Origin: Planctomycetota bacterium
Lineage (GTDB): Bacteria; Planctomycetota; Planctomycetia; Pirellulales; Pirellulaceae
DNA: 64,000 nucleotides
Assembly (NCBI GenBank): GCA_014381825.1
Contig: JACNKX010000116.1
Location: forward strand, 1-64,000
Direction: 5' to 3'
The translations under genes were made by a program, and so were the position numbers. Shown here piece by piece: positions 31,739 to 46,830 of the stretch; the stretch's first letter is position 1, and the number at the start of each line of letters is the position of its first letter. The notes beneath the pieces are model-generated. The model ran no database searches and was not told the DNA's origin. It was given only the letters and a program-made list of their open reading frames with translations.

Positions 31739-33196
31739 TCAATGATGCAATGTGAAAGCGACGCCTAGCGGTGCGGGCCCCAAATCGTTTTGGCGACCGT
31801 TCGCCCCTGCACGGCCTGTTCGTTGACCAGCCGCGACTAGCTGAAAGTTGCTAATTTCACGAGCCTGCTGATCGTAGACAACTCGACCGAAAAGCTTTGG
31901 TTGGTACGTTCGTCCGTCGCCCTCGAATTGCATTTCACCAGTAACGCGGAATATCACACGTTCACCCTCGCGATCGACGAGTTGTGTTCGCATCGCGCCG
32001 TGTCGTATGTGCTCCGGTTTCCAATCGCTGCATTGGCCACGAGCGCAATCTTTCAATGCGTGAGATACGAGTTCCTGCCAAGCCGATCTTGGAACTGGCT
32101 GCGGCGTTTCCGATTGGGTGACGAAGGCGGCGGCCTGTGGCGCCGTCAGATCAATCCACTTCGCGTTGTGAGAACAACGCTCGAATTCATTGCGACCCGG
32201 ATGCAACACTTCGCCGCGCGGAAGATCGCGAATCGCCGCCTCCAACTTCATCCCTCCGCGCTCGACCGGTTTGCCTAGCGTCTGCACGAGCTGCTCGGTT
32301 GGCACGGGTTGCGGCGTCCAGCCTCGTGCTCGCGACATCGTCTGGAAACGCTGCCAGCCGTTTTCGAGAACGTCTTGCGCACGATCCTTGAATGCCCACG
32401 CAAAGTAACCGGAAAGGTACTCGCCGTCGGCCGTCATGCAGTAAACGCCTTGCACGGTCGAACCACCAACCGGCACGACGCCGGGTGGCGCATCGGCGCG
32501 GTATTTCTTAAATAGATCGAGCCCGGCACGATCGTTCGGTTCCAGCCAGTGGCGCTGCAACCACGACGGTGGTCCTAGGACGAAAGCCTCATGCGTGGCG
32601 CAAACGAATTGTGAAGCAAGCTCTTGAATTCGTGGGTCTGACCAGACCTCTTTGCGCCCATTGACGCCATTGTTTCACGTCTCGCCACACGGGTTGCCGT
32701 TCATCGTCCAGAGAAGAATCGGCCTCTGCAGTCGGCGAGCTTCCTCTTGCGCCGTAGCAAGATTGTTGTGCCAACGAATGTCGCGCCACTTCAAATCTTC
32801 CTCCGTGGGGCGGATGAATGTTACCCACTCTTCAAGATTGTCATCTGTGACCACAGCAGCCGGCCAGCGAACCTCGCCGGCTACCGTGATTTGTGCTGAC
32901 GCAGCCGACGGACTCGCATTTGAAGCCGTTTCACTGCGTCCAGACATCTCCTGAGGAAAGTGCTCTTTCAGAAACGCCTGATCTGCATCGCTCAGGCTAC
33001 TGATGACGATTCGAGTCAGGCGGTCGCTGCCTTCTCGCTTGAGCGACACGACGCGGCCATCGATTTCGGCGACGGTCATCGGCTGGCGAGTCCGTCGTCC
33101 ATCACGCATTTGCCACTTGCGGAACTCGTTCTCTTGTGCGGAAACGATGGCCGTCACGCAAAGCATTAAGAATAAGGCAGCATTGTTTCGTGTCAT
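31739..33196 (-). CDS. Probable selenoprotein: secreted SHD1 plus thioredoxin-like protein with in-frame UGA
   Basis: One 485-residue frame from ATG 33196 to 31739, interrupted only by TGA at 32675-32677. The halves would be misread as two genes (about 173 codons before the TGA; a TTG-started 273-codon frame after it). The 38 codons between the TGA and that TTG are open and in the same frame. Signal peptide: residues 1-20. An SHD1-like domain lies at 23-78 (FRKWQMRDGRR...LSDADQAFLKEHF). A thioredoxin-like fold begins near residue 140: strand RPILLWTMNG, then P-C170-G-E-T-U174-N-N-G, which places the TGA at a redox active site. The fold goes on with VWSDPRI, GGSTVQGVYCMTADGEYLSGYF. A hairpin after the TGA resembles a bacterial SECIS. 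The alternative is a nonsense mutation or a sequencing error. No sel genes lie in the window. Confidence 0.72.
32635..32648 (-). promoter_or_regulatory. SECIS-like hairpin downstream of the in-frame UGA
   Basis: On the coding (minus) strand GGUCU-GGUC-AGACC forms a perfect 5-bp stem with a GGUC tetraloop. The stem begins 26 nt after the UGA and the loop 31 nt after it, within the range described for bacterial SECIS elements, which need a G early in a small apical loop. GGUC is also the apical loop of the E. coli fdhF SECIS. The same bases encode V-W-S-D-P, so both coding and structure would constrain them. Confidence 0.6.
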
Positions 33197-33215
33197 CGCG
33201 CTGTTCTCCGAGTTA

Positions 33216-33352
33216 GTAGCCATCACTCTCCGAGTGATGAGCCCTTTGAAGTTCGAGATGTCTAAACATTCGAACAAGGCGTGTTCCTATCGGTGTTGGT
33301 TCTGCGGGGAGCTGATCACTTGGAAAGTGATGGCTACGAATATGATGGCTAC
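33216..33352. repeat. Family A palindromic element, intercistronic copy 1
   Basis: The left end is GTAGCCATCACTCTCCGAG at 33216 and the right end is GTGATGGCTAC at 33327-33337. A second GATGGCTAC follows at 33344-33352. Each end carries its own small hairpin: ATCACTC-tcc-GAGTGAT on the left, ATCACTT-gga-AAGTGAT on the right, a compensated C-G to T-A change. It fills nearly all of the gap between the cyclase-like gene and the selenoprotein gene, and the extra right end supplies the TAG stop of the former. Confidence 0.8.
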
Positions 33353-34437
33353 CTTTGATACGCCGGCAGGTAGTGCATGTAAACCTCTAGGATCAACGTC
33401 GCCATGCTGGTGTAGTAAACTCGATTTACGCCGACAGTTCCTTCGCCTTCCGAAGTGCCGGGAGGTACGCTCCAACTGCCGTCGTCGTGTTGTTCTCGCA
33501 ACAACATCTTGCGCACGCGTGGATGCCAGTCGTCCCAGTACACGCCACCAGCCTGATAGTTCGCTTGCATCGCGTAGTAGTGGAAGTAGTAGTACCAATT
33601 CACGCCCCCTGAGTTTCCCCATTGCACCGGTACGTTTGACAAATAGTCGAGCGTCGGCTCGAGCAGCGGGTCGTCGTAATGACCGAGTAACTGCAGCGAC
33701 ACAACACCCGCCGCAGACATCGGCGGCGTGCGGCTTGGTCCTTGATATCCGAAGCCACCGTTCTGGCGAGCACATGAACGCACGTAGGTGACTGCGTCTT
33801 CAATCGTCTCCTCCGGAACAGCAATCGCGGCGTTGTTGGCTGCGCGCAGCGCGACGATTTGCATGACGGTGACACTCAAGTCTGAATCACCTGGGCGCGG
33901 TTGATAACGCCAGCCGCCGTTGTGCGATTGACTGTTCACGATTAATTGAACGGCATCGCGCAACGCCTCTTCCAAATCGTCATCGGGATCGACACCGTAC
34001 ATTTCTGCAACAGCGAGCGTCGTCAACGCTTGTTGGTACATGGGCCCCGAGCCGGCATTTCGTTCAGGTACGAACAATCCGTCATCGTTCTGCCGCGCGA
34101 GCGTGTACTGCTTCACCTTGCGAAGCACGTCACGATATTTGCCGCGTCCAGGAATATGGCCGCGTCCCATGAAAGCCAACATCGCAAGTGCGTTTGGTGC
34201 GTTGTTACCATCCCACGAACCGTCAGCACGCTGATGTTTCGCGAGGTAAGCCAACGATCGATCGACGGAAGCAGTGACCTCTTCCAGAACGGCAGGGTCG
34301 ACTTCGGCGGCGGGTTGGGCGAAGACAGACTTCGTGGTGATGCACACCACGGAGGCGAGAAGCAACGCGCATGACACCGCATGCCTCTTCGTCCCGCCTG
34401 TCCGTTTACCGTTTCTTGCGTCGCCTGACTGATGCAA
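33349..34437 (-). CDS. Prenyltransferase/squalene-oxidase-repeat (cyclase-fold) secreted protein
   Basis: A 362-residue protein with a signal (about residues 20-41, ...KSVFAQ) and four or more alpha/alpha-barrel repeats carrying QW-like motifs: LAKHQRADGSWDG, LARQNDDGLFVP, VNSQSHNGGWRYQP, SCARQNGGFGY, LREQHDDGSWSV. This is the terpene-cyclase/squalene-hopene-cyclase fold, but it is half the length of a true cyclase, is exported and lacks the DXDD motif. A catalytic cyclase role is therefore unlikely, and it may be a binding scaffold. The start is TTG 34437, supported by GGGAG seven nt upstream. The stop TAG lies inside a family A repeat end. Confidence 0.82.
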   Translation of the reverse strand: MHQSGDARNGKRTGGTKRHAVSCALLLASVVCITTKSVFAQPAAEVDPAVLEEVTASVDRSLAYLAKHQRADGSWDGNNAPNALAMLAFMGRGHIPGRGKYRDVLRKVKQYTLARQNDDGLFVPERNAGSGPMYQQALTTLAVAEMYGVDPDDDLEEALRDAVQLIVNSQSHNGGWRYQPRPGDSDLSVTVMQIVALRAANNAAIAVPEETIEDAVTYVRSCARQNGGFGYQGPSRTPPMSAAGVVSLQLLGHYDDPLLEPTLDYLSNVPVQWGNSGGVNWYYYFHYYAMQANYQAGGVYWDDWHPRVRKMLLREQHDDGSWSVPPGTSEGEGTVGVNRVYYTSMATLILEVYMHYLPAYQR

Positions 34438-34452
34438 CTTTATTCTCCCACT

Positions 34453-34481
34453 GGGCTCATCTCACAGAGCGAGATGGCTAC
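34453..34481. repeat. Family A palindromic element, half copy
   Basis: Only one end is present: GGGCTCATCTCACAGAGCG continuing to GATGGCTAC. Its small hairpin has changed to ATCTCAC-aga-GCGAGAT, keeping six of seven pairs. It supplies the TAG stop codon (34478-34480) of the vWA-like gene. Confidence 0.75.
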
Positions 34482-36772
34482 GAAAGACCGGTTAACCGCC
34501 GCATGCCAATGTCGGTGACGTAGACGGATGTCAACACTAACAAGATCAACCAGTTGTCCCAAATCGTGACTTCGCGATGGATCTGTTCATGATGCGGTTC
34601 GCCGCTTAGTTTCGCCGGCAACGTACTGAACTCGACTAATTCCAATAATTCGCCGCCTGATGTTGAAGCCAGTAACTCCAGTGTCGCGCGATCAACGTGC
34701 GGATGTCGATATTCGTCGGGAGCGAGTCTGGCTTGAATTGTCGCTTGAGCAGATTCAGTTCCATTGCCCGGCTGATAGAGCAAACGATGCGTGCCCGCTT
34801 CGCTAGGGGTGAACTTGGCGGTGTAACGCCCGGGCGTCTCTGGGTCGACCGACAGCTTAATCGGCTCGGTTGTATCGGCTCCCACGAAAGTAATGCGCTG
34901 CGTACGCTCGGCAAGTGGCGAGCCTTCTTCGTCGAAGGCCCACAACTCGATCTCTGCTTCCTCGCCGACACCGACCTGTACTGGATGAACGGCGATCCAA
35001 CTCTTCTTGCCAAGCTGATCCGCCCGCGCCACAAATCGAATGCTCTGGCCCCAGAACTTGTAGAAGTATCGGTCGGCGACATTCAACCGCCATCGCCAAG
35101 TCGCATCGGTGCCGACGAAGATGACTTTACCTTCGCCGGCGTGGTGCCATGCCATTAGCGGCATTTTTCCAAAGCGGCCTTCGACAGCCGAGTTCCATGC
35201 CAGGACTGTCGCCCCGGCCGCAGGGCGCTGTACCGCCGAGCACCAGAAGAACTCAGGCAACTCATCCCAAGCCTCTCTGTTCTGTACATCGTCATCTCGC
35301 AGTCGCATTCCATCGTGCAGCATGCCGTCTCCCGCCAGCTCGATCTTGAACGGCTCGTAGGCTGCCGCCTCGACTCCGGACTTTCCTGATTGCATCCGGA
35401 CAGGCAAGATGCTTCGGAAATCGGGATCAAATCGATGCGGCATCGCGTTTGGGCCAGCGGCTACGATCAATCCGACACCTTTCTCGCGAACGGCCTCGAT
35501 CAGCGTCTCGCGAAACGACGAATCGAATAAATCCGGCGAAACATCACCCAACACGATCACGTGGTACTCGCTTAGCTCTTCAACGGTCTGAGGGAGAGCG
35601 TCGTGTTGGCGTTGCTCGGACCAGCGTTTCCATTCCGTCTCGACGATCACGTCCGGCGGATTGTCATCGCGACCGGCCAGACCACCGTCACGATTCAAAG
35701 CGTTCTTCAGGAAGCGAAAGTCCCATCGAGGATGTCCGTCGAGGACGAGTACACGAAGCTTTTCGTCGGTGATCCGCACAAACGCCGTGTCGACATTGTT
35801 AGCGTGTAGCTCACGTGGTTCTGCAGCGAGTACGGGAATATTCACATCTAAGTAACTGGCTCCGACTTTCTCAGCCTCGAACGTCAATTCGATGCGTTGC
35901 GGGTGAGTACTGTCGAGCACGACTTGTTCTGTGTCGAGCAGCCGCTCGCCGTCTTTCAACTCCACCGTGATGGATTCACCATCCAGTTCGGTGGATTCGA
36001 CCGCAACGTTTACTCGCACGGTATCGCCAACGGTTACCAACGCCGATGTATCGACATCAACGATCGAGACGTCGCCCAGCGAGTAGTTCGAGTCGACCGG
36101 AATCGCGAAGACCGCTGCATCGGCGGCAGCCGCGAAGTGAGCCGCCTCCGAAACAGACGGACCACCCGTGTTCTGACCGTCCGAGATCAGCACGACGCCC
36201 GCGATCGACTCGGCGGCGGCATCGTCGACCACCTGTTGAATTGCTTCTCCGATAAACGAACTGTTTCCTGGTTTCGTTTCGGCACTCGCGATATCGTCAA
36301 TCGCCAACGGTTGCAGTCCGTCAGAGAACTCGAACACGCGGAGGGCGTAGTCCTCCGCAAGTTCTTCCAGCGTTTCGAGTCCATCGGCGAGCGCCTCTTG
36401 AGCCCGTGCGAATCTAGTCTGCGAGTGCGTCGTCGTAGTGGGATCGATCGGCAGCTGCATGCTTTGGGTGTTGTCGAGCAAGATCGCCAGGACCGGCTTC
36501 CGCTGGACGGTCATGTCCAGTCGCAAATAGGGCCCGGAGAGAATCAGGAGAATGACGACGGTGACGAAGACGCGCGCGATGTTCAGTATCAATCGGAATC
36601 GCGGCGACGGCGTGTCGAGATTCTGCTGCCGCCGCCAAATCAGATACGCCACGGGGATCAGTAAGAGCACTCCGAACCACAACACAACGGGTCGTTGAAA
36701 CGCCAGTTGAGCTTGGTCGAGATGCTCTAACACCTCGCCTTCGATGCCGATAGATTGGAGGAACCACGTCAT
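34478..36772 (-). CDS. Membrane vWA / glutamine-amidotransferase-like protein of the Bat-type cluster
   Basis: A 764-residue protein. Membrane helices lie at about residues 28-46 and 62-80. A vWA-like domain follows with a modified MIDAS (LLDNTQSM, Asp100-x-Thr-x-Ser) and VVLISDGQNTGG. A beta-sandwich region comes next, then a class I glutamine-amidotransferase-like fold (LRVLVLDGHPRWDFRFLKNAL, EYHVIVLGDVSPD, GLIVAAGPNAMP). The C-terminus is beta-rich with one more hydrophobic stretch. Such proteins occur with MoxR, DUF58 and BatA genes and probably form an envelope complex. The TAG stop is contributed by a family A repeat. Confidence 0.8.
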   Translation of the reverse strand: MTWFLQSIGIEGEVLEHLDQAQLAFQRPVVLWFGVLLLIPVAYLIWRRQQNLDTPSPRFRLILNIARVFVTVVILLILSGPYLRLDMTVQRKPVLAILLDNTQSMQLPIDPTTTTHSQTRFARAQEALADGLETLEELAEDYALRVFEFSDGLQPLAIDDIASAETKPGNSSFIGEAIQQVVDDAAAESIAGVVLISDGQNTGGPSVSEAAHFAAAADAAVFAIPVDSNYSLGDVSIVDVDTSALVTVGDTVRVNVAVESTELDGESITVELKDGERLLDTEQVVLDSTHPQRIELTFEAEKVGASYLDVNIPVLAAEPRELHANNVDTAFVRITDEKLRVLVLDGHPRWDFRFLKNALNRDGGLAGRDDNPPDVIVETEWKRWSEQRQHDALPQTVEELSEYHVIVLGDVSPDLFDSSFRETLIEAVREKGVGLIVAAGPNAMPHRFDPDFRSILPVRMQSGKSGVEAAAYEPFKIELAGDGMLHDGMRLRDDDVQNREAWDELPEFFWCSAVQRPAAGATVLAWNSAVEGRFGKMPLMAWHHAGEGKVIFVGTDATWRWRLNVADRYFYKFWGQSIRFVARADQLGKKSWIAVHPVQVGVGEEAEIELWAFDEEGSPLAERTQRITFVGADTTEPIKLSVDPETPGRYTAKFTPSEAGTHRLLYQPGNGTESAQATIQARLAPDEYRHPHVDRATLELLASTSGGELLELVEFSTLPAKLSGEPHHEQIHREVTIWDNWLILLVLTSVYVTDIGMRRLTGLS

Positions 36773-36809
36773 GGTTTTACCTTCCAGATCGTCGTCGAAA
36801 CCAGTCGAA

Positions 36810-39800
36810 TTACTTTGCTCCGGCTTGACTCAGTCTGATGAAGTAGTCGCGAATGAATCGTTGGTATCCCTTTGGACCACCTTGCCGCAGGCCCTGTAGT
36901 AAATCTTCGCGCTGATGGGGCTGCATTCGCATCAGTAGCGATGCTGCTTTTGGGTCGGTCTCGCCTAACTCGACGAGAATTTGCTCGACCGCTCCGTTCA
37001 TCGTTCGCGCGCCATCGGGGCTGCCTTGGGATTGCGCGAGTTGTGCAGTCGCATTGCGGGCGAGTGAAGGCGGAAGCTGCATTTCGTCCATGCGCTGTGA
37101 CATCTCCATCGCTTGTTGCATCGCGGGCGAGTTCAAGAGTTGGCCGAGTTGTTGCGATGATTGCGAGCTGGACGGCTGTTGCGAGTTCGTGGCTTGTGAC
37201 AGTTCGGAAATCAATTCACCGAGCGCTTGTTGGTCTGCTGCGAGACTTTCGGTTGCGCTACTCAACTGCTCGGCATGTTCCTGCTGTTGTTGAGCCAATC
37301 GCGCGCGCGGATCAATTGGACTTTGTTGTTCGGGACTTGGCTCGCCGGATTGACGTTCCGAGCTACTCGGCGCGGATTGACTTGGATTACCGCTTTCGCT
37401 CTCTTGTGCGGCATCCTGTTCCGCGCTCGGCTCGAACACGTCTTCCCAGTTTTCGAATTCTTCACTAGCAGCCTCTTCGTTCCCGTGAGCGTGTGGCTCG
37501 TCACTGGAAGATTCCTCGAAGCCTTTCTTCGAGCCGTCGATCGCTGGCTTGAACAAAGGCTCTTTCGATTTCGAGTCGAACGAATCCTCTTGCCGCGATT
37601 CGTCATGTTCGTGGCGTCCCCGTTCAGGTTCGCCAGCGTCTTCCCACAAGTCATCCATTCCGGAGTCCTCGTCAGCGGGCTCGAACGGGTTATCTACTTC
37701 AGCTTCCTCGCGGTCGGCATCTTCTTGGGCTAAGTCGTCGATTGCATCTGTGTTTAGTAGCTCCGATGCCTCTCGCAGGCCTTCTTGAGCGCGTTGTTCA
37801 AGCGATTCTTGCTGGGCAGCGAGCGAATCGATCGCTGGATCCGACATCTCCGCGTTGGTCTGCGAAGTGAGCTGTGTCTGCTGTTCACGATGCTGCTCCA
37901 AGTCCTCTCGTAGATCCTCGACGAAATCGCTCAATTCCGACAACTCACGCGCGGCTGCTTCGGCGTTCTGTTCAGTCAACTCTTGCTCGAACTCAGCCAA
38001 CGCCTCTTCAATACCATGCTGACTTGTTTCTTGAGCCCGTTGGATCGCTTCCAGCCTCGCCTGCAAGTCTGCAAGGTTGTCTTGCAAGTGATCACTCACG
38101 CGCTCGACCGTGGCCGCTTGCTCTCGGTTCGCCTCTGGCTGAGCCATCTGCGATGCCATTTGTTCGAGCTGTTCCAGAGGTTGTTGGACCAGCGGCTCGA
38201 TCGCTTGCTCGGCGGCTTCGATCTGTTCGGCGATTTCGGTCGGAAGCAATTGGGCTTCTGCAGCTTGTTCGGCAGCACGTTCCAATGCATGGGCCAACTG
38301 TTCCGCTAAATGGGCGTTCTGACGTTCGAGTCGAGCCAATTCGGTTCGTTCTTCGTCGCGTTCCCAGATGTCGTCGTTAGTACGATCGACCTGCGACTCA
38401 TCGCCGAAAGGATTGGTCTCGTGCTGTGGCTCTTCGCGGTCGGCGGTCTCGCCATGTGCTGAGGAATCGGCTCGCGCCAAGTCGCCAATGATCTCATCGG
38501 CGCGATTCTGTTCGCGGACAAGACTTTCGAGCATCGCCTCCACAGCTTTCAACTGTTCTTGTAGTTCAGCCAGCTCGCGATCCGCTGCTTCGCGCTCATT
38601 GGCGACGCGAACAATAAACGATTCGGATATAGCTACCTGGCCCTTTGTGTCACGGGCCTCGACGTGGCATTCGATTCGATCGTTAGCCCGCAGGCGTTGT
38701 TCCGCCAGGTCAAGCACGAATAACGCGTCTTCATTACGCGGCGGAAGAGCGGTTGCAAGCGGATGTGCCTGTCGCGAGACGCCCCAGTAGTTGTGTTCGA
38801 CGACTAGTGAGATGCCGTCCAATCCGAAGTCGTCAAACGCCGCAACCTGCACCGGGATTTCCATTGGTGACGTCACAACGATGTCTTTAGTTGGCCGAGC
38901 CAACACGACTTGCGGCGCGTTATCGGGAACGGCCGTTAGCTTGCCCTCCTTCATGTGTCGATTGGTGTGCCCGAGCGAGTTCTGTAGCACGATGCGGTAA
39001 TGGCCGTCTTGCTTTAAATCGAATGAGGCTTGTCTGTAGCCATCACTCTCCGAGTGATCAGCGCGACCCGCTCTAGGAGCGAGAGGGCCACTGTATTTGT
39101 GCTCGTCACTCGGAGCGTGACGGCTACTTTGCATCGCAACTGTTTCGACGACTGTGAACTCGCCGTCGGCACTTCGTGCTAGAAGCTCGATCTCGCCGTC
39201 AGAAACATCGCCTTCAAAGCTGACGGAGACCTCGACATGACTGCCGACGGGTCCCGTTATATCGACGGTGTCATCCGAGGAAAGTTTGGGTTGATCGATC
39301 CGCATGTATTCGGGGAAATGCACGGCGCTGTGCACCGACGTAATTCGCGGCCGGTCGAGCAGCTTGATCGCATACTGTTTGCTCCAGGTTCCGCCTCCGT
39401 GGACACGATAGGAGCACGGGTATTGCATCTCGTTCAAGGTGAGACTCACGTGATCTTCGCGCAATTGTCCGAAGTCGTACCAAACTCGACGACGCCCGCC
39501 GTCTTCCTCACTCACGTTCAATTCCAGCCGCAACGGATCAATGCCGCCCGGCGGGTCGACTTCTCCGTCTCGCAGTACGACCGTAAACTTCACGTCTTCG
39601 CCGCGTAAGATGTCGCAGTTGCCGGGTTTGCGGTTATCGGCGACTAGCACGTCGTACTTGACACCTGAATTCGGCGGGATGTCGGCCAGCGGGTTCACAA
39701 TTCGGGCGACGGCTGTTGGCATGCGATCCCCGAAGATGACTGCTGCCGCAGCGAATGCGATCAGGCCGCATCCGGCAAAGATGGCGGCTCGCTTCAATAG

Positions 39801-40289
39801 CAGCAAGTTAAGCACCTTGGTCGGCTGAAAGCCTCGAATGCGATCAATTGCTTCGATGACAAGTCGACGGTGAAAGACGGGCGAGCGCTTGGCCGCTTCG
39901 CTGTGGTCGGTCAGCTCAACGCAACTTACCAAACGATTGTGAATTCCTGGCAGGTGCGATTCGATTTTATGGGCGACTTTCACTGCCGACAGCCGCCGGA
40001 GTATCGGTACCAAGACGCCGGCAATGAACGCAACTGCTCCCGACGAGACGACAGCCAACCAGCCGGCGACACGAAGGAATGTCGATAGCGGCATCGCGAG
40101 GTCGACGACCGTCACAAACAGCAGCGCCGAGACGAAGACCCCGCACGTAATCGCCAGGCCAATTGTCGTCCAAGTTGAACGCAACAGCCGACGCGTGCGA
40201 GCGATCAGCCGCTCGATCGCATCGACATTGAGAGTTTCGACGACGTCGATCGCTTGTTGACGATTGGAAGATCTGCCGTTGGTAGACAT
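36810..40289 (-). CDS. Giant coiled-coil membrane protein (DUF4175-like) of the Bat-type cluster
   Basis: A 1159-residue protein. Three hydrophobic segments lie in the first 190 residues (about 41-63, 73-95, 167-187). Beta-rich Ig-like regions follow to about residue 560. A very long Glu/Gln/Ala-rich region from about 575 to 1110 has strong coiled-coil heptads, and the C-terminus ends in a short helical domain (RMQPHQREDLLQGLRQGG). The layout resembles DUF4175 proteins found next to MoxR/vWA genes. Around residues 388-418 a family A palindrome is read in frame, adding about 31 residues between two beta strands. The start ATG 40287-40289 lies 16 nt after the upstream gene, indicating coupling. 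Confidence 0.8.
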   Translation of the reverse strand: MSTNGRSSNRQQAIDVVETLNVDAIERLIARTRRLLRSTWTTIGLAITCGVFVSALLFVTVVDLAMPLSTFLRVAGWLAVVSSGAVAFIAGVLVPILRRLSAVKVAHKIESHLPGIHNRLVSCVELTDHSEAAKRSPVFHRRLVIEAIDRIRGFQPTKVLNLLLLKRAAIFAGCGLIAFAAAAVIFGDRMPTAVARIVNPLADIPPNSGVKYDVLVADNRKPGNCDILRGEDVKFTVVLRDGEVDPPGGIDPLRLELNVSEEDGGRRRVWYDFGQLREDHVSLTLNEMQYPCSYRVHGGGTWSKQYAIKLLDRPRITSVHSAVHFPEYMRIDQPKLSSDDTVDITGPVGSHVEVSVSFEGDVSDGEIELLARSADGEFTVVETVAMQSSRHAPSDEHKYSGPLAPRAGRADHSESDGYRQASFDLKQDGHYRIVLQNSLGHTNRHMKEGKLTAVPDNAPQVVLARPTKDIVVTSPMEIPVQVAAFDDFGLDGISLVVEHNYWGVSRQAHPLATALPPRNEDALFVLDLAEQRLRANDRIECHVEARDTKGQVAISESFIVRVANEREAADRELAELQEQLKAVEAMLESLVREQNRADEIIGDLARADSSAHGETADREEPQHETNPFGDESQVDRTNDDIWERDEERTELARLERQNAHLAEQLAHALERAAEQAAEAQLLPTEIAEQIEAAEQAIEPLVQQPLEQLEQMASQMAQPEANREQAATVERVSDHLQDNLADLQARLEAIQRAQETSQHGIEEALAEFEQELTEQNAEAAARELSELSDFVEDLREDLEQHREQQTQLTSQTNAEMSDPAIDSLAAQQESLEQRAQEGLREASELLNTDAIDDLAQEDADREEAEVDNPFEPADEDSGMDDLWEDAGEPERGRHEHDESRQEDSFDSKSKEPLFKPAIDGSKKGFEESSSDEPHAHGNEEAASEEFENWEDVFEPSAEQDAAQESESGNPSQSAPSSSERQSGEPSPEQQSPIDPRARLAQQQQEHAEQLSSATESLAADQQALGELISELSQATNSQQPSSSQSSQQLGQLLNSPAMQQAMEMSQRMDEMQLPPSLARNATAQLAQSQGSPDGARTMNGAVEQILVELGETDPKAASLLMRMQPHQREDLLQGLRQGGPKGYQRFIRDYFIRLSQAGAK
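39036..39127. repeat. Family A palindromic element inside a coding region
   Basis: It runs from GTAGCCATCACTCTCCGAG at 39036 to GTGACGGCTAC ending at 39127, about 92 nt. The right-hand hairpin is CGTCAC/GTGACG, a compensated variant of the usual ATCAC/GTGAT. The coiled-coil gene reads through it without a stop, giving the Arg/His/Ser/Gly-rich segment RHAPSDEHKYSGP to HSESDGYR. Confidence 0.82.
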
Positions 40290-40305
40290 GAGTATTTCTC
40301 CGACG

Positions 40306-42609
40306 CTAGGGCCGAGTCGTGTGGGTGAATTTTTCGTTTAACGGCGAGCCGAAGCCGGCGGCGTTTCGTCGACGTGTCGGCGCAGTCGCCTTCGGCTTGC
40401 CGTTAAACAATTGTGTGAGTGAGAATCGTGCTGGCAGGACTGCGTGCATCGCGCTGCCGCTTGGCGTGGCAATCAGCAGCTCGACGGAGATCACCGCCAA
40501 CGCGAGAAAGATCAACGTGCGCCACAACTCGCGTTTCGCACCGACTTGTCCATGACGCTGTTGGGCTTCCGGTGACGCGTCGATCATCGTGAGGTTTACT
40601 GCGGGCAGCATCTCGCTCAGCTGGCCTTGTGTCACGGCATCGAAATGTGATTCGTCAGCCGCTGTGTTGACGGCGAAGGCGAGAGTTTGTTCTTTAGGCT
40701 CCCCAGTCGAACCACCGCTGACGGTGACTCCATAGAATGCGGCTTCAATCGTATTGTCGAACGCGGCGACAATTCGGCCATTGTCGTGCTCGAACTCAAG
40801 TGGCGTGGCACCATGCGACTCGCTTAGCACAGAGCCATTGGCAGATTCCCACGACTCGTCGACAGAGATTTCGGCGATCCCTTCTGCCGGGATGACCGCC
40901 GCGACATTAACCTCGGGCCGCCTCTTCACATAAGCGGCCATTCGAAGAACCAGCGGAACGAATTCAGGTTGTAGAGGCAGGTTTGACCAACTCGCGTCGA
41001 ACGGTACTGCTGACAGCAAGACGCGGCCCTTGCCGAATCGTCCGGCAACGATCAGGGGTGAACCGTCAGCGAATCGAGCCAACGTCCATGTGTTCTTTGC
41101 CGATTTGGCGAGAGCTAGTTCATAGCGTCGATACGCTCGAGTTCCAGCCAGATAGTGTTCGTCCGGGTCACGAAAGACTGAAAAGACTGGGTGAGCGAAG
41201 TCCACGCCACCGAAACGATCAAACGCGGCGGTCTGACCAGCCGAGCCAGTGGCAGCACGCAACCGAACGGCCAGTAAATAACTCTCGGTGCTGGAGTTAG
41301 CTGCAAGTAGCGCTCGGTTGTACTCTCCAGGATCGACTTGCTCGCCAGGCAAGATCAACAAACCACCACCATCGGCGACGAACTTCCGCAATCGTTCGTG
41401 GGCCGTCGCAGAAAGCGCGCCGCAATCTGCCAAGATCACGACATCGGCCTCGCCCAGGTGTTCTGCGTTTAAACGCGATTGACGAACCTCTTTCAAGTGC
41501 AGCGACCGCACCTGATCTTCGTCGACCGAAAGTGCGCTGCGAAGGAACAGTCCGCGATCTTCAAGTGGATCGGATGACGGATGACCGTTGACGAGTACGA
41601 CGTTGACTTCGGAAGTGGCGGACAAAGTGAACCGGAACACGTTGTCGCCAGCGAAGCGGTCATCGGGGATCTCGTAACGAAGTCTCTGAATTCCGGATTG
41701 CTCGGGAGTGTAGATCACCTCGGCCTCGGCGGCCTTTCCGGGTTCAACGGTGATCGTCTTTCGAGCAACCTCTTCATCGCCGGCGAAGACGCTGATGGGA
41801 ACTTCGACGGATTCGACCGTCGAGAAATTGATGACTCGTGGCTGTAGCGTGACTGGCAAACCGGCGAGTACATGCTGATCGTCGGGAACGCCAGCGATGA
41901 TACCTTGGTTCTCGATCGGCTTGCTCGAGCCAACGTTGATCACGAACACCTCCGTGTCGGTGGGAATCAAGCCTGCGGTCTCGCCGGTCTTTAGTTCCCG
42001 CCAGCCTGTCTGCTGCATGTCGCTGATGACGTAGATTCGAGGGTTGGCCAATCGATCGGACTGAAATGTGTGCAGCAATGCGGCAAACCAGTTTGCTCGC
42101 GCCGCACCAGCTTCTAGCTGATCGATCGACTCGCGAATCGCATCGGGATTCGATGCGAAGCGACTGCAGATTTCTCCCGGGCGACTGGCGACGCGGATGA
42201 CGGTTACGCGATCTTGGCTGGGCAGATTCTCGACGATCGAACTGGCGGCTTGTTTTGCCTGCTGCATCGCGCTGCGACCGTCGGTGGTGATGCTCATACT
42301 GGCTGACGCATCGATCAGTAGCACATCGTCACGCCCCGAATCCATGCCCCCAAACAACGCGCCCCATTTACTGACCGCTGGTCGTGCGAGCGCCATTACG
42401 ATGAAGAGCAAAAACAACGTGCGAAGTACCGCCAGTAACATGTCTTCGAACTGAACCCGCCGACGACTGCGGACTTCGCCATCGAAGAGGAAGCGGTACG
42501 TACTCAGCTCGATCGTTCGCAACTTGTGCAATGTCAGCAAGTGCAAGATGATCGGCGCCGCGATGATAGGCACGAATGCGAGCAGTAATCCGAAGTGAAG
42601 GAAAGTCAT
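40306..42609 (-). CDS. BatA-like vWA membrane protein
   Basis: A 767-residue protein. The N-terminal BatA domain (MTFLHFGLLLAFVPIIAAPIILHLL, then RRVQFEDMLL and a second helix at about 57-76) is followed by a vWA domain with an intact MIDAS, IDASASMS (Asp100, Ser102, Ser104). Beta-sandwich segments and a GATase-like region (DVVILADCG...GGGLLILPGEQV) come next, and a membrane helix near the C-terminus (LWRTLIFLALAVISVELLIA). The start ATG lies five nt from a family A repeat. The last 25-30 residues are encoded by a family B palindrome and are rich in Lys/Arg/Thr/Pro. Confidence 0.88.
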   Translation of the reverse strand: MTFLHFGLLLAFVPIIAAPIILHLLTLHKLRTIELSTYRFLFDGEVRSRRRVQFEDMLLAVLRTLFLLFIVMALARPAVSKWGALFGGMDSGRDDVLLIDASASMSITTDGRSAMQQAKQAASSIVENLPSQDRVTVIRVASRPGEICSRFASNPDAIRESIDQLEAGAARANWFAALLHTFQSDRLANPRIYVISDMQQTGWRELKTGETAGLIPTDTEVFVINVGSSKPIENQGIIAGVPDDQHVLAGLPVTLQPRVINFSTVESVEVPISVFAGDEEVARKTITVEPGKAAEAEVIYTPEQSGIQRLRYEIPDDRFAGDNVFRFTLSATSEVNVVLVNGHPSSDPLEDRGLFLRSALSVDEDQVRSLHLKEVRQSRLNAEHLGEADVVILADCGALSATAHERLRKFVADGGGLLILPGEQVDPGEYNRALLAANSSTESYLLAVRLRAATGSAGQTAAFDRFGGVDFAHPVFSVFRDPDEHYLAGTRAYRRYELALAKSAKNTWTLARFADGSPLIVAGRFGKGRVLLSAVPFDASWSNLPLQPEFVPLVLRMAAYVKRRPEVNVAAVIPAEGIAEISVDESWESANGSVLSESHGATPLEFEHDNGRIVAAFDNTIEAAFYGVTVSGGSTGEPKEQTLAFAVNTAADESHFDAVTQGQLSEMLPAVNLTMIDASPEAQQRHGQVGAKRELWRTLIFLALAVISVELLIATPSGSAMHAVLPARFSLTQLFNGKPKATAPTRRRNAAGFGSPLNEKFTHTTRP
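40335..40408. repeat. Family B palindromic element read as C-terminus of the BatA-like gene
   Basis: Left arm CGTTTAACGGCGAGCCGAAG at 40335-40354, right arm CTTCGGCTTGCCGTTAAAC at 40390-40408. Nearly perfect 19-bp arms enclose a 35-nt GC-rich centre. It is fully inside the gene and encodes the residues just before the stop. Confidence 0.85.
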
Positions 42610-44834: not shown

Positions 44835-46604
44835 CTACGACCGCAGGTCGTAACAGACGATGTTTTGTTTGCGGCGTAGATAGAGCTTTCCATCGACGAT
44901 TGTTGGTGAGGTGCATTCGACGAGGCCCATGTTCTCCTCGTCAAGTCGTTCCAGACGATTCGTGTTTGTCCCGAACATCAGCAAGCGATTCTTGCCAACG
45001 GTTATCAACTTGTTGTTCGCGATGGCTGGCGACGAGTAGTTCGAGTTGCCGATGCCTTCACGCCACATGGTCTTGCCATCGGAAAGGCGGACGCAGAGCG
45101 CTGTGCCAGCGGCGGTCGAGTAGACGAATCCGTTGTAGACGACGGGTGTCGATCCATGACAATCGGCTCGCGAGGTCCATGTTTCTTCGGGTTCAGAATC
45201 GCCAAGTTGATAGGCACAAAGTGTGTTACTGCCGTGCAGGACGAGTTTGTCACCGGCAACAATCGGTGTGCTGTTGCCGCCGTGCGAGCGAATTTGCCAC
45301 TCGATTTCGCCGCTCTTCACTTCGATCGCCGTCAGCTGATTACCTGTGTTACAGATTACAAATGTATTGCCGTCGTATTTCCAAACGGCCGGCGAACTGT
45401 GTTCGGATTTAACTCTGCTCTGCGACCAAAGCTCCTCACCGGTCTCTGCATCAAGGCCAGTGACCGGCCCTGAAAGAACCACGGCGACGCCATCGGCGAC
45501 CGTAAAAGACGACGAGGTTTCTTTATTCGGTCGAGCCGTATTGGCTTGCCAGATCTCGCGACCGGACGTTGCGTCGATGCAGTAGACATATCCGCCGGAA
45601 CCCGAAGCGTAGACTCGACCGTTCACGACACAGGGCGTGCCGTTGGATGGTGTCGTGTGCGTGCCACCATCATTCTCGAACTTCCAGATCGATTCGCCGG
45701 AATCCGCGTCGAGGCAGTAGACGACGTCGAGACCACTGTACGCCGGCGGTTGCCTTTTGTTTGGCGGAATATTGACGTACGTATAGGTGCGACCGTTGGT
45801 AATTGACACGCTTCCCCAGCCGCCTTCCCATTCGCCGGGAATGCGATCGCTCGTCCACAGGGGCGGCGGACCGCTGGACGGCCACGAATTAAGTAGCGAC
45901 GGGCCAGCCGAGACTACGCCGTCTCGGCTGGGCCCGCGCCACATCGGCCAGTCAGCGGGAGTTGGTTCGGTGCTTTGTGGCTGTACTCGTTCGACGCGAC
46001 CAGCCAAAGGTTGCGCCGCGGATTCAGCTTGATCAGCGTTCGCATAGATTTGCTGCTGCTCAACAAGATCGCGATCTGCCTGGCTGAGCTTTGCCAGTGG
46101 CATCTCGATCTCGCGTCCGTCGTCTTGTCGTTTTAGGCGAACGGAACGGTCGTCGTGCGCGATATAAGCCAACTTGATTGACGAACGACGTCCGTCGATT
46201 GTCTGCCAAACGCGGTACTCGTTTCCGACGACGGAGTATCCGCCGATCAACATGCAAAACATCAGACTCAGGCCAACGACAACGGCGCTGGCCCGAGTTG
46301 TGAGCGGCCATCGCCAACGACGATCGCGATCATCGCGCCGATACGAAACCGTGTTTGCTGCGGTTGATGGTATCGTGTCTCGCGATGGGAATTCGCGGTT
46401 GGCTGGTTGAATCGTCGTAGCCCAACGATCGTCGTGACTTTGAAAGAACATGACGGCGACGTAATCGCTTGTGTCTTGCACTCGCTCCAACAGAACTGTC
46501 TGCGTGCAACGCGGGCACTTGAGTTGCTTACCATCGAGACGGCGGCTCTTAATTCGAAGTTGCGAGTTGCAATGCGGACAGCGCACATTGGTAACGCCAG
46601 ACAT
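44835..46604 (-). CDS. PQQ-propeller protein with N-terminal zinc ribbon, membrane helix and SHD1 domain
   Basis: A 589-residue protein. A zinc ribbon with Cys9, Cys12, Cys30 and Cys33 (CPHC...CPRC) is followed by a membrane helix at about 105-128 and an SHD1-like domain just after it (YRVWQTIDGRRSS...MPLAKLSQADRDLVEQQ). A PQQ-type beta-propeller fills the rest, with DWPMWRGPSRDGVVS at its start and AxSGREIW.. type blades. The ribbon would be cytoplasmic and the SHD1 and propeller extracytoplasmic. The start is ATG 46604 with GGAG six nt upstream. True PQQ-enzyme active-site residues are not evident, so it is probably structural. Its SHD1 domain matches the type in the selenoprotein. Confidence 0.86.
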   Translation of the reverse strand: MSGVTNVRCPHCNSQLRIKSRRLDGKQLKCPRCTQTVLLERVQDTSDYVAVMFFQSHDDRWATTIQPANREFPSRDTIPSTAANTVSYRRDDRDRRWRWPLTTRASAVVVGLSLMFCMLIGGYSVVGNEYRVWQTIDGRRSSIKLAYIAHDDRSVRLKRQDDGREIEMPLAKLSQADRDLVEQQQIYANADQAESAAQPLAGRVERVQPQSTEPTPADWPMWRGPSRDGVVSAGPSLLNSWPSSGPPPLWTSDRIPGEWEGGWGSVSITNGRTYTYVNIPPNKRQPPAYSGLDVVYCLDADSGESIWKFENDGGTHTTPSNGTPCVVNGRVYASGSGGYVYCIDATSGREIWQANTARPNKETSSSFTVADGVAVVLSGPVTGLDAETGEELWSQSRVKSEHSSPAVWKYDGNTFVICNTGNQLTAIEVKSGEIEWQIRSHGGNSTPIVAGDKLVLHGSNTLCAYQLGDSEPEETWTSRADCHGSTPVVYNGFVYSTAAGTALCVRLSDGKTMWREGIGNSNYSSPAIANNKLITVGKNRLLMFGTNTNRLERLDEENMGLVECTSPTIVDGKLYLRRKQNIVCYDLRS

Positions 46605-46830
46605 TTCGTTCTCCTTCAGAAGCATTCTGTTCCGAGGCTCAGATGGCCTGCGAAGGCATCACCGTGAAGTGACTTAAGGACGGCATTGAGTCAACCGTTC
46701 GCGTTGAGTCATCGGCCTTCACTGGGGTAATAACGAGTGCCGCGAATGCATTACAGAAAAGTTGAAGAAAGTTGTCGTCGCGAGAGAAAGGAGGCCGGAA
46801 CAAGTCTGCGCAGTTCCAGCCTATGCAAAG

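Follow-up and report, generated by a model that had tools for sequence, protein, structure and literature searches.

Thioredoxin-fold proteins such as DsbD-gamma, AGR2/AGR3 and DsbH carry active sites of the CxxC type, a geometry in which the second active-site Cys stands three residues past the first. Where UGA is decoded as selenocysteine (Sec), this decoding competes with termination. Several described protein families place Sec in a C-x-U motif, as does the family presented below: rhodanese form 3 (NF041203), a UshA-like family (NF041198), ferredoxin-thioredoxin reductase (NF041072) and thioredoxin-like Sec.1 (PF13192), all entered in Table 1 of PMC13188914. The bacterial SECIS (bSECIS) model described in the same paper has a stem of 4-16 bp and a loop of 3-9 nt with G in its first two places, as well as a spacing of 16-37 nt and a minimum free energy (MFE) of -7.5 or lower. 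According to a 2022 review (PMC9312934), homologues in which Cys replaces Sec exist for almost all selenoproteins.

Here we analyse a gene in a stretch of 64,000 nucleotides from a Planctomycetota bacterium, hereafter the window. Two adjacent minus-strand open reading frames (ORFs), separated by a single TGA, had been read from the letters alone as one selenoprotein gene, and we followed this proposal through homologues, the Sec machinery, RNA structure and protein models. From this evidence we regard it as almost certain that Sec is inserted at the UGA of codon 174. The whole explanation, a single selenoprotein gene whose product is probably exported and has a predicted thioredoxin fold, also appears very likely.

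The locus and its predicted product

Translation of the minus strand from 33196 to 31739 gives 173 codons, a TGA (32677-32675), 311 further codons and a terminal TGA. The sequence-only reading had this layout right: both ORFs lie in one frame with the single TGA at 32675-32677 between them, the 38 codons that follow it are open up to the first TTG of the second ORF, and Cys and TGA fall at codons 170 and 174 as claimed. The features of the locus, with what each rests on, are as follows.

31739..33196, minus strand: complete predicted selenoprotein gene, 485 residues, Sec at 174, normal TGA stop at 31741-31739 (translation; relatives' frames continue past the same TGA)
33137..33196, minus strand: signal-peptide-like N-terminus MTRNNAALFLMLCVTAIVSA, residues 1-20 (judged by eye)
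32957..33124, minus strand: SHD1-like segment, residues 25-80 (SHD1 profile from the same genome; mostly low pLDDT)
32315..32833, minus strand: predicted thioredoxin-fold domain, residues 122-294 (AlphaFold2 domain model and Foldseek)
32687..32689, minus strand: Cys170, candidate partner of Sec174 (translation and family table, with the partnership itself presumed)
32675..32677, minus strand: predicted Sec-UGA, residue 174 (translation and same-position TGA in homologues)
32654..32667, minus strand: second predicted hairpin, GCGUC-AAUG-GGCGC, between the UGA and the SECIS loop (RNA prediction)
32635..32648, minus strand: putative bSECIS upper hairpin, GGUCU-GGUC-AGACC, loop 31 nt past the UGA (identity within the clade, geometry)
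31748..32251, minus strand: C-terminal region, residues 316-483, with long end strands (397-483) and no recognised fold (model)

Such a frame is unusual in its surroundings. Only three same-frame pairs of consecutive open segments, each of at least 170 codons with one stop between them, occur in the 64 kb window, and TGA separates this pair alone; the separating stop of the other two, at 44835 and 33287, is TAG. TGA also terminates eight of the 28 non-overlapping window ORFs of at least 300 codons (ORFs rather than proven genes) as well as the selenoprotein gene itself, and it is therefore still a stop codon in the window. Standard gene calling would be expected to split members of the family into two broken genes.

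A hydrophobic stretch near the possible start is shared by many of the relatives printed among the 15 homologous loci described below, and the protein is probably exported. The SHD1 label that the sequence-only reading gave to the N-terminal part fared less well. Pfam's SHD1 model (PF03983) gave no match to the window protein at E <= 10, and no SHD1 match was listed in a Pfam scan of 87 family members (E <= 0.01); a profile built from eight SHD1 stretches of the same genome did reach residues 25-80, marginally (17.4 bits, E 1.3e-4 among 548 sequences with filters off). The label thus stays weakly supported by sequence comparison. Eight SHD1 matches above the Pfam cut-off occur in the window's genome, and another SHD1-like segment lies in the window at 46050-46217, on the minus strand within the ORF 44835-46625 (21.9 bits against the Pfam cut-off of 23.7).

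The gene starts 152 bases downstream of a run of minus-strand genes (33349-42609) that comprises a prenyltransferase-like gene, a VWA-like gene, one for a long protein with no Pfam match and one for a BatA/VWA-domain protein. The neighbourhood of the window copy is not conserved among 118 named loci of the family: only the prenyltransferase-like neighbour was matched, at three of the 118, and the commonest neighbour group of all, frames overlapping the family gene being excluded, occurs at seven.

The same genome holds a second likely selenoprotein gene (L091; G000:C73:52000-54300, minus strand), a frame of about 367 codons with a TGA followed by a long open stretch. Its motif reads RPIDDERC-U-VFAAATREVVF; a weak profile match makes it thioredoxin-like, and it reached no NCBIfam cut-off. 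Two relatives of this locus, L171 and L172, also have the TGA.

Conservation of the in-frame TGA and the Sec machinery

With the downstream half as query, a first search of 199 genomes of the bacterial family found matches in 14, the window's own genome included. The 15 homologous loci first obtained (L005-L019), 14 of them in other genomes from that family or genus and one a paralogue in the window's own genome, all have TGA at the residue matching 174 (15/15), and their commonest motif is M[ND]GHP[LFM]GCT-U-[GN]NG. When a profile was built from 16 members and run against a phylum-wide sample of 392 genomes, at least 128 gave a match (E <= 0.001); such counts are lower bounds because at most four candidates were scored per genome.

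In this wider sample the Sec column holds TGA in 135 of 143 alignment rows, Ser in six, Asp in one and Pro in one. The rows come from automatic loci and 100 chosen stretches, cover part of the profile matches listed, and include three repeats of a locus (L039, L040, L091). A few rows, for example those of the RC-U group, represent looser relatives. Ser in the second copy of L075 and in L076 and L077 depends on the alignment, since residues are inserted just before the column. Among the matches listed in the phylum sample, Cys was found at the Sec column in none of the 143 rows; the family profile treats U as Cys, so Cys homologues were not disfavoured.

A wider net was cast with a DNA pattern approximating M[ND]GHPx[GA]Cx-(TGN)-xNG, applied to genomes of 84,980 species. 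At least 118 matches resulted, and all 118 listed have TGA, none having the Cys or Trp that the pattern equally allowed; Cys homologues with other flanks are missed by such a pattern. Every listed locus also matched the family profile (E <= 9.4e-30). Record labels assign 69 of these loci to Planctomycetota, 20 to Verrucomicrobiota, nine to Armatimonadota, three to Latescibacterota and two to Fidelibacterota, with 12 unassigned; single matches are labelled Chloroflexota, Actinomycetota and a methanogen, possibly from mis-binned contigs. The contig bearing the family member L277, from a metagenome-assembled genome labelled Methanoregulaceae archaeon, is probably a mis-binned bacterial one. Two listed matches lie in complete chromosomes, those of Planctomycetes bacterium Pla163 and of K23_9.

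Alignment at residue 174, as the sequence-only reading had proposed, thus returned TGA in nearly all homologues, and the Trp or Arg that would have spoken against Sec appeared in none of those seen. The Cys homologues that it expected were not found among the 143 rows and the 118 listed pattern matches, the eight rows without TGA having Ser, Asp or Pro. These eight relatives (L073, the second copy of L075, and L076-L081) also have no Cys at position -2. A selA match is absent from three of their genomes (G295, G371, G491) and present in five.

The window's assembly (9.69 Mb in 238 contigs, listed completeness 99.93%) carries the Sec genes that the sequence-only reading had proposed to look for: selA (565 bits) and, adjoining it on contig C59, selB (352 bits), both above cut-off; two selD matches above cut-off; and a tRNA-Sec gene (67 bits against a gathering score of 47), called tRNA-SeC with anticodon TCA by ARAGORN. 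One selD copy has an in-frame TGA itself and reads CASCAG-U-AGKLP, and the other is a 741-codon frame, roughly 300 codons of which match selD, so that it resembles a fusion (the two loci are L181 on G000:C135 and L037 on G000:C45). Across the 392 genomes, treated as unrelated, selA (E <= 1e-40) is found in 81 of 84 with a TGA-bearing member (E <= 1e-30) and in 165 of 308 others (one-sided Fisher p = 1e-15). The three exceptions, G410, G460 and G475, have listed completeness of 67, 91 and 87%. At five of the 118 pattern loci (L185, L193, L239, L252, L270) selA, selB or selD lies in the same stored stretch, of up to 8 kb, as the family gene.

Downstream hairpin, predicted Sec site and alternative readings

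The hairpin downstream of the window's UGA fits the bSECIS geometry, with a stem of 5 bp, the loop GGUC and a spacing of 31. Folded alone it reaches -4.7 kcal/mol, weaker than the -7.5 limit, and the region as a whole reaches -12.7, within that limit. Twelve of the 14 members of the window's clade (support 99) share its 14-mer exactly. The eight clade members among the aligned named loci (L213, L225, L230, L240, L247, L249, L279, L286) have only 34-43% domain identity with the window protein. The 14-mer contains the Ser codon TCA, which accounts for 4% of the other 166 Ser codons in the downstream frames of those 12 genes. An exact 14-mer with a rare Ser codon, kept at such protein divergence, argues for selection on the RNA, and we take this hairpin to be under such selection. 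Hairpins are also predicted at about the position of the second one in L144, L146, L147 and L158. An Rfam scan of 32400-33300 gave no match.

In the family at large, the MFE of the 45 nt past the UGA is modestly low (mean z -0.38 +- 0.09, with same-gene control stretches at -0.30 and -0.24), and tests specific to register and silent sites were therefore used. Nine doubtful loci (L041, L090, L091, L163-L166, L171, L172), short stretches and sequences more than 90% identical were left out. Numbering the UGA as nt 1-3 and taking non-redundant members, the 38 without Trp at +11/+12 have a complete 5-bp stem at nt 17-21/27-31 in 79% of cases against 12 +- 5% for the null, and the 64 with Trp have one at 21-25/31-35 in 33% against 2 +- 2%; the null consists of 200 synonymous-codon randomisations, with maxima of 26% and 8% respectively, and both registers were chosen as best on the same data, which biases the comparison in their favour. 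Paired double changes are only somewhat above the null in the group of 38 (0.163 against 0.114), where one stem pair occurs as G-C in 21 members, C-G in 11 and T-A in two. They show no excess in the group of 64 (0.006 against 0.007), of which 43 have one stem pair mismatched. When 175 non-redundant sequences are taken together, 59% show bSECIS geometry with a hairpin energy of -5 kcal/mol or lower, against 23 +- 3% for the null, and 39% show it with -7.5 or lower, against 10 +- 2% (20 null draws).

The predicted structure supports what the sequence-only reading had seen, a thioredoxin-like fold with a central strand just before residue 174. A search of the PDB with the whole-chain model by Foldseek returned nothing at E <= 0.001, and the domain at residues 122-294 was therefore modelled by itself (AlphaFold2, pLDDT 93.8, pTM 0.90). 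Its Foldseek matches include 3ira, 3f9u, DsbD-gamma, AGR2/AGR3 and the DsbH domain of Bab1_2064 (probability 1.00 and E 1.5e-4 to 1e-2 for DsbD-gamma, AGR2/AGR3 and DsbH). The matches are moderate, with query TM-scores of 0.43-0.54 over the top 20 rows; four PDB chains stand at E <= 0.001, with probability 1.00 and query TM-scores of 0.46-0.54. Sequence-profile matches to the PDB are weak only (best 0.11-0.2). In the full model a strand (160-165) leads through a loop to a helix from 175, which puts residue 174 at the helix start. The residues invariant in 16 members not selected by motif include W142, P159, M165, G167, P169, Sec174, N176, G177, R181, Q249 and G250; in the 87-row alignment, from which 25 of the 118 pattern loci were omitted for incomplete frames although all 118 were scored by profile, several invariant columns are imposed by the search pattern itself.

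The usual family motif is C-x-U (GHPLGCTU), whereas the window protein has its Cys at -4 rather than -2 (PCGETU). With the duplicate loci L039, L040 and L091 and one row of too short left flank set aside, Cys occupies position -2 in 110 of the 131 Sec rows and is missing there from all eight non-Sec rows (Fisher p = 1.5e-6, rows being treated as unrelated). It is absent from the window protein and 20 other Sec rows, so that a C-x-U selenenylsulfide is not universal. Position +3 after Sec, where the second Cys of a CxxC would fall, is taken by Gly in 122 of the 131 Sec rows, by Val in four, by Ala in four and by Cys in one, which suggests that the partner Cys of Sec lies upstream in this family. 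Cys at -4 is common to the window protein and L075; one tree makes the two sisters (SH-aLRT 85), while in a tree of the downstream half the remaining 13 clade members group without L075, with a support of 10.

We propose that tRNA-Sec and SelB insert Sec at UGA 174 under the direction of the coding-sequence hairpin that closely follows it. Sec would then sit at the N-terminus of a helix in the modelled thioredoxin fold, the usual active-site place, in a motif [C-x-]U-[NG]-N-G. After export, Sec174 may attack, as a selenolate, oxidised or disulfide substrates in the periplasm; the preceding Cys, 172 in most members and Cys170 here, could close a selenenylsulfide, which a DsbD-type donor would reduce, and the conserved C-terminal region may recognise the substrate. 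Thiol or peroxide redox activity of this kind is in our view somewhat more likely than not; that the window protein runs through this particular selenenylsulfide cycle is rather doubtful.

Sec might instead take no part in thiol redox and bind a metal or metalloid or hold selenium, the thioredoxin fold serving as scaffold only. The 21 of 131 Sec rows lacking Cys at -2, the predominance of Gly at +3 and the replacement of Sec by Ser, Asp or Pro, never by Cys in 143 rows, would suit such a role; the fold, nearest to DsbD-gamma, AGR and DsbH structures, and the confinement of Cys at -2 to Sec rows count against it, and we consider it unlikely.

In a further reading, the codon mostly acts as a stop and yields a 173-residue protein, readthrough with Sec occurring only when selenium is plentiful. 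Competition between decoding and termination at Sec-UGA codons gives this some plausibility, but a protein of that length would break off at the domain's catalytic position, and conservation among relatives takes in both halves and spans about 310 residues past the TGA. Regulated termination thus seems improbable.

The window protein is divergent, with an end branch of 1.33 and 16-36% identity to 86 relatives, as might be expected if a recent nonsense change or a sequencing error had broken the frame. Its relatives nevertheless have TGA at the same codon in many separate assemblies and several phyla, both halves are conserved, and so are the silent sites of the hairpin; we hold a pseudogene or error to be very improbable here, and for the family as a whole the TGA shared across assemblies and phyla refutes it. 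Insertion of an ordinary amino acid at the UGA, such as Trp by a suppressor or recoded tRNA, for which we found no supporting point, can be set aside as next to impossible, given that TGA terminates eight of 28 long window ORFs, that no Trp homologue was seen in 143 rows and 118 listed pattern matches, and that the TGA tracks selA across genomes.

The selenoprotein reading therefore came through the computational tests proposed with it, on Sec genes, residue 174 and fold. The C-terminal half, in a single-protein scan of genome contigs, gave no confirmed relatives.

Relation to known families

As far as seen, members of this family either retain Sec or have lost it altogether, with Ser, Asp or Pro in its place, and none has exchanged it for Cys. 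That Cys could not replace it is a view to which we give slightly less than even odds; similarly tentative is our picture of the family as one of Sec-only, probably exported thioredoxin-fold enzymes, common in Planctomycetota and present in Verrucomicrobiota, Armatimonadota and others. If the Sec-only view is true, the chemistry would require selenium and would give lineages that are largely aerobic, as those carrying the family are, a reason to retain the Sec system. A near-obligate Sec family across phyla would offer a natural case for asking why some enzymes need selenium, and an added marker for Sec-using bacteria. The members in the complete chromosomes of Pla163 and K23_9 are open to direct testing.

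No family cut-off in Pfam or NCBIfam was reached by the members scored singly (six against Pfam, four against NCBIfam). Thioredoxin_7 (PF13899) gave the window protein 18.8 bits, below its gathering score of 27, and appeared in the Pfam scan for nine of 87 members at E <= 0.01 (best 5.6e-4), Thioredox_DsbH doing so for five. Among NCBIfam models at E <= 0.01, the 87 members matched NF041383 (nine members), with two further single matches. Models of the C-x-U families NF041203, NF041198, NF041072 and PF13192 matched none of the 87 at E <= 0.01. Table 1 of the 2026 inventory (PMC13188914), which covers 119 families, shows no fitting entry. We found no description of the family in the open-access literature; an earlier listing is possible, for example in table S9 of PMC4807772, which covers selenoprotein candidates.

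The nearest described selenoproteins resemble the family in general plan and differ in detail. Like the window protein, the Trx7/PDZ (seleno)protein NF041199 has a Thioredoxin_7-like domain with Sec, and it matches residues 141-200 weakly (E 0.026); the window protein nevertheless scores 13.4 bits where the cut-off is 300, the motif listed for NF041199 is CxxU and that of our family CxU, and the PDZ domain of NF041199 has no counterpart among the Pfam matches of the 87 members. The VPGUxxT thioredoxin-like (seleno)protein NF041383 shows weak similarity to nine of the 87 members of our family (best E 7.4e-4), but two members scored 14.3 and 13.4 bits, far below its cut-off of 275, and the Sec motif differs. 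DsbD-gamma, AGR2/AGR3 and DsbH share the fold of the window domain's AlphaFold2 model, but at 11-16% sequence identity. Judged from these sequence comparisons, the gene very probably belongs to a new and widespread selenoprotein family, apparently Sec-only; the copy in the window is a divergent form of it with its Cys at -4, not -2.
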